Source of the DNA: Brevundimonas sp. PAMC22021
GTDB lineage: Bacteria; Pseudomonadota; Alphaproteobacteria; Caulobacterales; Caulobacteraceae
Direction: 5' to 3'
Assembly: GCF_019443405.1 (NCBI RefSeq)
Contig: NZ_CP080376.1
Coordinates: 744,001-808,000 of the forward strand
Length of the DNA: 64,000 bases
Numbering within the stretch: position 1 is the first letter of the stretch; each line of letters begins with the position of its first letter. The notes beneath the pieces were generated by a model. The model was not told the DNA's origin and did no database searches. It was given only the letters and a program-made list of their open reading frames with translations. Shown one piece after another: positions 34,015 to 60,653 of the stretch. The position numbers were made by a program, and so were the translations under genes.

Positions 34015-34584
34015 ATGACCGATGCAGCGCCCGCCGCCAATCCGCGCCACAAGTGGTACATCATCAACGCCTATTCGAACTTCGAAAAGAAGGTCGCCGA
34101 GCAGCTGCGCGAGCAGGCTCGTCAGCGTGGGCTTGAGGACAAGTTCTCCGAAATCCTGGTGCCGACCGAGGACGTCGTCGAGATCCGCCGCGGCCGCAAG
34201 GTGAACTCCGAGCGCAAATTCTTCCCCGGTTATGTGCTGGTGAAGATGGAGATGACGGACGAGGCCTATCACCTGGTCAAGGACACGCCCAAGGTCACCG
34301 GCTTCCTGGGCGCAGCCGGCGGCACCAAGCCGCTGCCGGTCTCCGAACGCGAAGTGCAGAACATCATCGGCGCGGTGGAAGAGGGCGTGGAGCGTCCGAA
34401 ACCCACCATCCGCTTCGACATCGGCGAAAAGGTCAAGGTCACCGACGGCCCCTTCGCCAGCTTCGACGGCTCGGTCGAAAGCGTGGACGAGGACAACGCC
34501 CGCCTGCGCGTCGCCGTCTCCATCTTCGGCCGCGCGACGCCGGTCGATCTGGAATACGGCCAGGTGGAGAAGGTCGCGGGCTGA
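34015..34584 (+). CDS. nusG: Transcription termination/antitermination factor NusG
   Basis: A 189-residue RNA polymerase-associated factor. The NGN domain has KWYIINAYSNFEKKVAEQL and FFPGYVLVKMEM, and the C-terminal KOW domain has GEKVKVTDGPFASFDGSVE. It normally precedes rplK directly. Here a repeat-bracketed DUF559 gene of about 0.77 kb in total separates them. No clear terminator follows nusG itself. Confidence 0.97.
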   Translation: MTDAAPAANPRHKWYIINAYSNFEKKVAEQLREQARQRGLEDKFSEILVPTEDVVEIRRGRKVNSERKFFPGYVLVKMEMTDEAYHLVKDTPKVTGFLGAAGGTKPLPVSEREVQNIIGAVEEGVERPKPTIRFDIGEKVKVTDGPFASFDGSVESVDEDNARLRVAVSIFGRATPVDLEYGQVEKVAG

Positions 34585-34675
34585 TCGGCCGCTGACTACC
34601 AGAACCCCTTCGTCACGGTGCTGCGCGCCGCGCCCCCTCTCTATCCTCTATAGTTAGGGGAGTTGACCAAACCTC

Positions 34676-34745
34676 TTTTCTCCTCCCTGTTCGCGAAGCG
34701 AATGGGGAGGTGGATCGTCGGCATAGCCGACGAGACGGAGGGGTT
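34676..34745 (+). repeat. Two-hairpin dispersed repeat, copy L (left of DUF559 gene)
   Basis: The outer hairpin has CTCCC and GGGGAG arms around TTCGC-GAA-GCGAA. The inner hairpin is TCGTCGGC-ATA-GCCGACGA. The copy ends GACGGAGGGGTT. The same architecture occurs at four other sites in the window. The final GGAGGGG lies 4 nt from the DUF559 ATG and looks like its ribosome-binding site. Confidence 0.88.
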
Positions 34746-34747
34746 GG

Positions 34748-35098
34748 ATGCCGGCCGCCGCGAAGAGCTACGAACGCGCCCGCACCATGCGAAGGGCTTT
34801 GACGCCGCCAGAGGCTAGACTCTGGACGGCGATCAAGAACCAGCGGCTCGGCGTGCGCTTCCGCCGCCAGCATCCGATCGGCCCCTACATCCTCGACTTC
34901 TATTGCCCACAGGCGAAGGCAGCGGTCGAGGTGGATGGTCTCATGCACAGCGGCGCGGAACGCGCCGCACATGATGCGCGACGAACCGTCTGGCTGGCGC
35001 AGCAGGGTGTTCGCGTCATCAGGATCGAAGCCGTCGCAGTCAGAGACGATCTGCCGTCCGTGATCGACTTCCTTCAGGCCGAACTGACCGGTCGCTGA
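34748..35098 (+). CDS. DUF559 (Vsr-like fold) endonuclease-domain protein
   Basis: This 116-residue protein is nearly all DUF559 domain, a group related to the very-short-patch-repair endonuclease fold. Visible motifs are LTPPEARLWTAIKN, FRRQHPIGPYILDFYC and AAVEVDGLMH. The D…E-x-D arrangement suits a PD-(D/E)XK-type metal centre. The C-terminal GVRVIRIEAVAV strand is also typical. Biochemical activity is unproven for the family. The gene is hugged by inverted copies of a dispersed repeat, 2 bp from each end, and splits the nusG-rplK operon, which suggests it arrived as a unit. Confidence 0.85.
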   Translation: MPAAAKSYERARTMRRALTPPEARLWTAIKNQRLGVRFRRQHPIGPYILDFYCPQAKAAVEVDGLMHSGAERAAHDARRTVWLAQQGVRVIRIEAVAVRDDLPSVIDFLQAELTGR

Positions 35099-35100
35099 AG

Positions 35101-35165
35101 ACCCCTCCGTCTCGTCGGCTGCGCCGCCGATCCACCTCCCCATCTCTGCGCGATAGGGAGGAGAA
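35101..35165 (-). repeat. Two-hairpin dispersed repeat, copy R1 (right of DUF559 gene, inverted)
   Basis: It begins ACCCCTCCGTCTCGTCGGC and ends GGGAGGAGAA, the reverse complement of copy L with changes mostly in loops. It starts 2 bp after the DUF559 stop, so L and R1 form terminal inverted repeats of a single-gene unit. Confidence 0.88.
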
Positions 35166-35167
35166 GA

Positions 35168-35230
35168 TTTCTCCTCCCTATCGTCGATGGGGAGGTGGCG
35201 CGAGGCGTAAGCCTCGTGACGGAGGGGTTT
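35168..35230 (+). repeat. Two-hairpin dispersed repeat, copy R2
   Basis: Same orientation as copy L, with inner stem CGAGGC-GTAA-GCCTCG. It abuts R1 tail to tail: GATAGGGAGGAGAA and TTTCTCCTCCCTATC make a nearly perfect 14-15 bp palindrome at the join. The remaining approximately 125 bp to rplK contains only a possible promoter/leader and a GGAG ribosome site. Confidence 0.85.
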
Positions 35231-35356: not shown

Positions 35357-35788
35357 ATGGCCAAGAAGATTCTCGGCTACATCAAGCTGCAGGTGCCGGC
35401 CGGCTCGGCCACGCCTTCGCCGCCGATCGGCCCTGCGCTGGGTCAGCGCGGCGTCAACATCATGGGCTTCTGCAAGGAGTTCAACGCGCGCACGGAAAAG
35501 GAAGCCAAGGGCACCCCGCTTCCGACCGTGATCACCGTCTACCAGGACAAGAGCTTCACCTTTGTCACCAAGACGCCGCCGGCGACCTGGTTCCTGAAGC
35601 AGGCCACCGGCCTGAAGTCGGGTTCCAAGCTCGTGGGCCGCGAAACGGCCGGCAAGATCACGCAAACGCAACTGCGCGAGATCGCCGAAAAGAAGATGAA
35701 GGATCTCAACGCCAACGACATCGACGCCGCGGCGAAGATCATCGAAGGCTCGGCCCGCGCGATGGGCCTGGAAGTGGTGGAGGGCTAA
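35357..35788 (+). CDS. rplK: 50S ribosomal protein L11
   Basis: L11 (143 residues) forms the base of the factor-binding stalk with 23S rRNA. It starts [20 protein letters not shown] and has the [23 protein letters not shown] block and the C-terminal RNA-binding domain [21 protein letters not shown] precedes the ATG. rplA follows after 4 bp. Confidence 0.98.
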
Positions 35789-60499: not shown

Positions 60500-60563
60500 T
60501 TCTCCTCCCTGTTCGCTTAGCGAATGGGGAGGTGGCGCGGCGCATCGCGCCGTGACGGAGGGG
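60500..60563 (+). repeat. Two-hairpin dispersed repeat, copy E1
   Basis: The outer hairpin has CTCCC-TG-TTCGC-TTA-GCGAA-TG-GGGAG arms, the inner hairpin is CGGCGC-ATC-GCGCCG, and it ends GACGGAGGGG. It is the same family as the copies around the DUF559 gene and starts just after the tdh stop. Confidence 0.88.
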
Positions 60564-60585
60564 GGAGTGGCGTCGGCCGGCCTTT

Positions 60586-60653
60586 ACCCCTCCGTCTCGT
60601 CGGCTTCGCCGCCGATCCACCTCCCCATCCGCCGCGCGGTCGGGGAGGAGAGG
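60586..60653 (-). repeat. Two-hairpin dispersed repeat, copy E2 (inverted)
   Basis: It begins ACCCCTCCGTCTCGTCGGC and ends GGGGAGGAGAGG, inverted relative to E1, with only 22 bp between the two inner ends. The pair therefore forms a REPIN-like doublet with no gene inside. It ends 2 bp from the topoisomerase IB stop codon. Confidence 0.88.

Follow-up and report, generated by a model that had tools for sequence, protein, structure and literature searches.

In the window analysed here, 64,000 nucleotides of the Brevundimonas sp. PAMC22021 genome (contig NZ_CP080376.1, positions 744,001 to 808,000), a DUF559 gene lies between nusG and rplK and is bracketed by inverted copies, L and R1, of a repeat that consists of two hairpins. 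Such brackets are found at DUF559 genes of other genomes far above chance, the repeat families follow the tree of the DUF559 proteins, and units made of the repeats come and go between near species. On balance, it is probable that this cassette is a pair of nuclease and repeat that resembles a REPtron (REP, repetitive extragenic palindrome), with an unrelated enzyme of the PD-(D/E)XK type that would act on the repeats. Genomes and loci used for comparison are given G and L numbers, repeat families F numbers.

Results

Inverted repeats bracket many DUF559 genes

Bracketing was measured by a motif-free inverted-repeat score, for which the two 320-bp flanks of a gene are compared. The score was applied to 40 loci of about 16 kb, two from the own genome and 38 chosen for their long contigs (L051 was omitted because its flanks were too short). 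A score of at least 22 was reached by 20 of the 40 DUF559 genes vs. none of 383 control genes taken from these loci; at a threshold of 20 the numbers were 23/40 and 1/383, and not one of the 147 short control genes (<700 nt) was bracketed. The association with repeats in other genomes, which the earlier note on this DNA had proposed as a check, is thereby supported. An inward-pointing repeat head within 80 bp was present at 29 of the 40 DUF559 genes (on both sides in nine) vs. 5 of 434 controls (on both sides in none), and 60 further loci of the genus had such a head at 35 DUF559 genes (both sides in 14). The head motifs were picked after viewing the loci, and identical motifs were applied to the controls. 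A crude measure of repeat orientation based on composition was discarded, since the hairpins are palindromes and heads and tails look alike to it.

Altogether, 66 of 115 DUF559 genes of the genus scored at least 20 (29/50 clusters at 70% identity), as did 15 of 56 in the class and phylum (14/51 clusters at 70% identity). In a set of named loci these were 11 of 75 DUF559 genes (9/45 clusters) vs. 0 of 96 control genes, and the 11 bracketed loci include metagenome-assembled genomes (MAGs) of Nitrospirota, Chloroflexota and Actinomycetota. The genus, class/phylum and junction sets are best-scoring matches and not a random draw. Duplicates (L042, L100, L146) were removed from the bracket counts inside and outside the genus, L191 was omitted from the class/phylum comparison since it belongs to the same genus, and 5 of 80 named loci were omitted for too short flanks. 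In L200 (G456, another family of the class), about 100 bp of near-identical inverted flanks surround the DUF559 gene (score 98.5); a Truepera MAG (L316) has a weaker bracket (score 18.5), which is under the cut-off for counting.

The rare head of family F2, GGGAGGGTGWGGGG, occurs in 54 copies in 121 genomes. At least 16 of these have a DUF559 match no more than 300 bp away, against 0.06 expected from uniform placement, and in 13 of the at least 16 the distance from the head to the DUF559 domain match is 21–25 bp. The expectation was computed with 472 DUF559 genes, the count being 440; uniform placement underestimates it where repeats keep out of genes, though this falls short of the factor needed. 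Genomes with a DUF559 protein at least 58% identical to a member of that clade had the F2 head in 9 of 21 cases vs. 17 of 100 other genomes (p 0.013).

Repeat families follow the DUF559 tree

Five repeat families and the label "none", with motifs chosen after viewing the flanks, were mapped on the phylogeny of 97 DUF559 proteins from the genus. Only 19 label changes were required; the mean after shuffling was 55.9, and 0 of 200 shuffles were as low. Near copies contribute to this result and, therefore, a comparison within genomes was made too: left and right flanks of the same DUF559 gene matched (score at least 20) in 39 of 67 cases; when a left flank was set against the right flank of another DUF559 gene in that genome, 9 of 172 did. 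In G037, five of the eight DUF559 loci read score at least 20, with five different repeat families as judged by eye. One two-hairpin family, GCTCTCCGCCCC..GGGCGGAGACAGG..AGAGGCGGGC, brackets DUF559 genes in G037 as well as G049 (L334, L348). That the repeat types track the gene tree points to an action of the enzyme on them.

Organisation of the cassette and of dispersed repeats

As the earlier note had described, the DUF559 gene is enclosed by L and R1, and a further copy, R2, adjoins R1 tail to tail (Table 1). The gaps are small: the ATG follows L after 3 bp, and R1 begins 2 bp after the stop codon (35096–35098). The complementary arms of L and R1 (34702–34744 and 35101–35143) are 43 nt long and 93% complementary. 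The repeats have two types of end, a (GATCGNCGGC..) and b (GCGCGGCGC..), with the common terminus GACGGAGGGG. With the decayed copy next to L the order is therefore b'-a-DUF559-a'-b. The head GGAGGGG, taken as ribosome site of the gene in the earlier note, ends 4 bp before the ATG and therefore can act as one; the position speaks for this, the role itself is putative.

Table 1 Features of the cassette, its neighbours and a dispersed unit (window coordinates)
Feature	Position	Strand	Remarks
nusG, left neighbour	34015..34584	+	
Decayed fourth repeat copy, type b	34603..34645	-	tail to tail with L; AACCCCTTCGTCACGG...GCGCC; head at genome 778605
Repeat copy L, type a	34677..34744	+	tail hairpin, second hairpin, then gene-facing head GACGGAGGGGT
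Repeat head GGAGGGG	34737..34743	+	at the position of a ribosome site of the DUF559 gene; putative role
DUF559 gene, 116 codons	34748..35098	+	Vsr-fold PD-(D/E)XK nuclease
Repeat copy R1, type a	35101..35166	-	inverted with respect to L; gene-facing head
Repeat copy R2, type b	about 35167..35229	+	tail to tail with R1
rplK (L11), right neighbour	35357..35788	+	
Dispersed miniature unit, type b + type a	60502..60645	.	head to head, 22-bp spacer; heads at genome 804554 (+) and 804587 (-)

Folded as single-stranded DNA, L, R1 and R2 gave z-scores of -5.7, -2.2 and -4.3. Over 28 copies from the same genome, 95.7% of the cells of the two-hairpin structure were paired, vs. 44.5–59.7% when the structure was slid along the alignment, and 6 of 15 pairs had changes on both sides. 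An Rfam identity of the repeats was considered and rejected: the only matches were to microRNAs, all sub-threshold, and are regarded as chance.

Apart from the cassette, the repeats are dispersed in the genome. The motif ACGGAGGGGT is found 45 times and its reversed sequence, used as control, not once. The 30 loci read contain 39 heads. Fifteen inverted pairs take up 30 of these, nine of the pairs being head to head and six tail to tail, and each pair joins one end of type a and one of type b (types assigned by eye). The spacing of the head-to-head pairs is 18–35 bp, mostly 18–22 bp, and one such unit of 145 nt had a folding z-score of -8.6. With their outward tails, head-to-head units have terminal inverted repeats, as in miniature inverted-repeat transposable elements (MITEs), and they look like REPINs or miniature transposons. 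The miniature unit in the window sits between an open reading frame (ORF) that by eye is dehydrogenase-like and an ORF on the opposite strand. In L072, a single miniature unit combines an end of type F4 with one of type F3, again by eye; therefore, repeat families can share units.

The DUF559 protein

The cassette ORF encodes a DUF559 protein (PF04480, 98 bits). It carries the Vsr fold, a catalytic fold also known from homing endonucleases. Profile matches to PDB entries were dismissed as chance where E exceeded 0.3, and a PHROGs search was uninformative (its top match, at E 1.3e-6, is a family without an assigned function). DUF559 is present in 114 of the 121 genomes of the genus, the own genome included, and dN/dS was 0.07–0.21 across 10 pairs of DUF559 genes. 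The own genome also encodes a 743-aa RecQ helicase with RQC and HRDC domains and a C-terminal DUF559 domain (L103:7989-10220 on the minus strand; G000:C1 near 2251872). In this fusion, a nuclease of the DUF559 family is coupled to a helicase whose substrate is structured DNA.

The nusG-rplK junction in relatives

A search with the junction gave matches in 127 of 131 genomes; the 30 best matches of the genus were taken and 29 of them parsed (all except L246). Two junctions have the cassette (own genome and G035), one has a single repeat (G096), four have another ORF, as judged by eye, and the remaining 22 are 178–381 bp long. The observation of the earlier note that the cassette interrupts nusG and rplK is confirmed.

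Among the matches listed, G035 is the only one besides the own genome that matches across the cassette. The two cassette proteins are 72% identical. G096 has no DUF559 match, and its single repeat shares the right boundary with G035. A tree of nusG and rplK rejected a clade of the own genome and G035 (p-AU 0.0016) as well as a clade of these two with G096 (p-AU 0.0085), and leaves a group of G035 and G096 possible (64/65). For these two related cassettes at one junction, three histories would fit: an old origin followed by many losses, a transfer that took the flanks along, or independent arrivals at a place to which repeats are drawn.

The junction holds other sequences in relatives. Another inverted repeat (CGTCATCCTCGGGCTTGACCCGAGGATC and variants) was seen in five of them (L224, L226, L229, L233, L239). 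The other ORFs are of two kinds by eye (L225, L243, L244, L245), and the nusG-rplK spot therefore accepts several kinds of insert.

Gain, loss and relocation

Orthologous sites of near species differ in their repeat units. G061 (L089) has a complete head-to-head F1 unit that is absent at the orthologous site in G009, G039 and G079, with a net difference of 141 bp; this is a multiple of three, and the unit is perhaps inside an ORF. At a second orthologous site, the unit is complete in G061 (L067); in its place there is one hairpin in G039 (L065) and in G028 (L072) and another insert in G107 (L069), and G002 (L099) is empty there. Finally, a full unit is present upstream of a DUF559 gene in G074 (L064) and G086 (L058) and one hairpin in G088 (L068), and on the downstream side all three have kept a unit, which begins 1 bp after the stop codon of that gene. 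We infer the direction of these changes, gain or loss, between near species.

The genes themselves apparently move rarely. DUF559 pairs of 75–90% identity shared no flank in 20 of 48 cases, which speaks for relocation of the genes on a longer time scale; relocation, if any, is slow. An insertion sequence (IS)-like element that multiplied recently was considered and found no support. In three genomes, of which 8, 6 and 6 copies were read (20 of the 25 DUF559 genes counted), the highest identities within a genome were 58, 63 and 69%; the copies are old paralogues.

As to the mover of the repeats, the earlier note had set the cassette apart from systems with a Y1 transposase of the RAYT type. The lack of such a mover here was borne out: Y1_Tnp had no match in the own genome (matches were found in 4 of the 121 genomes of the genus), and a RAYT as mover of the repeats was rejected on this ground.

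Discussion

By association, the DUF559 protein is a candidate for an autonomous partner that moves the repeat units. For the probable pair of nuclease and repeat, the following sequence of events can be envisaged. The DUF559 protein would recognise the head or hairpins of its own repeat family and cut the hairpins in their extruded or single-stranded form, e.g. at the replication fork. Repair of the cut would then copy or remove the repeat unit, and a collapse between the two outer hairpins would leave a scar with a single hairpin. The DUF559 gene itself would be kept as a mostly vertically inherited nuclease under purifying selection, like the domesticated TnpA-REP genes.

Several results weigh against such a pair, and in particular against a cassette that moves. 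A similar number of repeats in genomes without the gene, named in the earlier note among the results that would refute it, was indeed observed: the median is 3 copies in the 7 genomes without DUF559 vs. 4 in the 114 with it (p 0.89). Nor is there a clear dependence on a DUF559 of the F4 type (14 hand-picked genomes, median of 5 vs. 4, one-sided p 0.08), and 36 and 20 copies of ACGGAGGGGT were counted in G011 and G028, both without a close relative of the cassette protein. Many DUF559 loci score below 20 (49 of 115 in the genus, 41 of 56 in the class and phylum, 64 of 75 named), and of the three DUF559 genes of the own genome the one without a bracket is the RecQ fusion. Of the DUF559 pairs with at least 90% identity and available flanks, 28 of 29 share at least one flank. 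A target-site duplication was not visible at the orthologous sites read, the flanks of which have diverged. The own genome and G035 share the junction yet are not sisters and, therefore, the history of this site is not that of a clean single insertion. Of the mobile unit proposed there, the association with repeats and the coming and going of units between near species have held; movement of the cassette as a unit is conjectural. A REPtron-like pair is preferred over a freely jumping IS because the number of repeats is independent of DUF559, close pairs are syntenic, the paralogues are old and no target duplication is seen.

It is tempting to go further and to speculate that a lone PD-(D/E)XK nuclease of ~115 residues cuts the two-hairpin repeats specific to its clade, so that they are copied, excised or homed, in several phyla, and that it has been partly domesticated, e.g. 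in the RecQ-DUF559 fusion; this we hold to be possible but doubtful. Homing as the explanation is unlikely. DUF559 would then be a Vsr-type homing endonuclease that cuts gene-free pairs or solos of the repeat, and repair with an occupied copy as template would insert the gene between two repeats; the repeats would be target and homology arms and would be moved by something else. Homing alone leaves the clade-tracking repeats unexplained, unless the enzyme also spreads or selects repeats, and the picture at nusG-rplK is given equally by an ancient insertion with losses or by transfer of the whole junction.

The independence of repeat number from DUF559 and the other inserts in the nusG-rplK junction of relatives would also fit repeats that owe their spread to some other process of the host and come to lie beside DUF559 genes, in tolerant, laterally acquired spots or as hairpins that insulate genes, and the expected number of F2 heads is too low if repeats prefer intergenic DNA. 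This is, however, rather improbable: control genes are unbracketed, the short ones too, at least 16 of the 54 F2 heads lie at DUF559 genes, and the repeat family is matched to the clade and, within one genome, to the individual gene. Still less probable is a DUF559 protein that serves in very-short-patch (VSP)-type mismatch repair or phage defence, with flanking hairpins that only regulate or terminate the transcript; a regulator needs neither the same repeat inverted on both sides nor families that track clades nor dispersed copies. A role in repair or defence and an action on the repeats are compatible and not exclusive.

DUF559 proteins are widespread in bacteria and annotated as Vsr-like endonucleases; for few of them has a role been tested. 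Many genomes, for their part, are strewn with small GC-rich hairpin repeats for which no mover is known. Should the two prove to be linked, the role of the enzyme and the mover of the repeats could be tested together, using short oligonucleotides and a protein of small size. In the open-licence literature, no title or abstract opening was found that links DUF559 to hairpin repeats.

Comparison with known systems

The Vsr of E. coli, a mismatch-repair endonuclease that nicks T:G mismatches at the motif of a cytosine methyltransferase, has the same fold as the cassette protein. A homing endonuclease with the Vsr fold is I-Bth0305I (3r3p), but the cassette gene lies between hairpin repeats, and the junction shows neither an intron nor an intein. 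TnsA of Tn7 works with a DDE transposase; such a partner is not present inside the DUF559 cassette. To the same family belongs VsrA of Caulobacter (CCNA_02930), a DUF559 protein that is required for the DNA damage response of cells lacking the ScmA methyltransferase (PMC12907096); the parts of its description available to us do not mention a repeat bracket (PMC12907096). The CIR of Caulobacter are, according to the accessible part of their description, two-arm intergenic repeats of alphaproteobacteria with no known mobiliser (PMC2229807). The cassette repeats are likewise two-arm and intergenic. In contrast to them, CIR are about 110 bp long with GANTC at the loop (PMC2229807); L, R1 and R2 contain no GANTC.

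The closest parallel is the REPtron. As far as the consulted portions of the literature go, palindromes border the coding sequence in REPtrons, the tnpA-REP genes are housekeeping-like, and groups of genes and repeats co-evolve (PMC8266576), and REPINs are dispersed inverted doublets whose remnants are singlets (PMC3116915). In the cassette, too, a nuclease gene is bordered by inverted palindromic repeats, and these repeats are also dispersed, mainly as inverted doublets (30 of 39 heads are paired). As to the GTAG/CGTC tag at one end of the palindrome in REPtrons, F4 copies have CCGTC next to hairpin 2 if the opposite strand is read; the heads of other families (GATGAGGGG, GGTGGAGGGG) do not. 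The cassette repeats differ in that they have two hairpins each and two types of end, and the enzyme is a PD-(D/E)XK protein with Vsr fold (PF04480) and not a Y1 transposase of the HUH type. If our reading is true, this would be a REP-like system that is independent of an HUH transposase.
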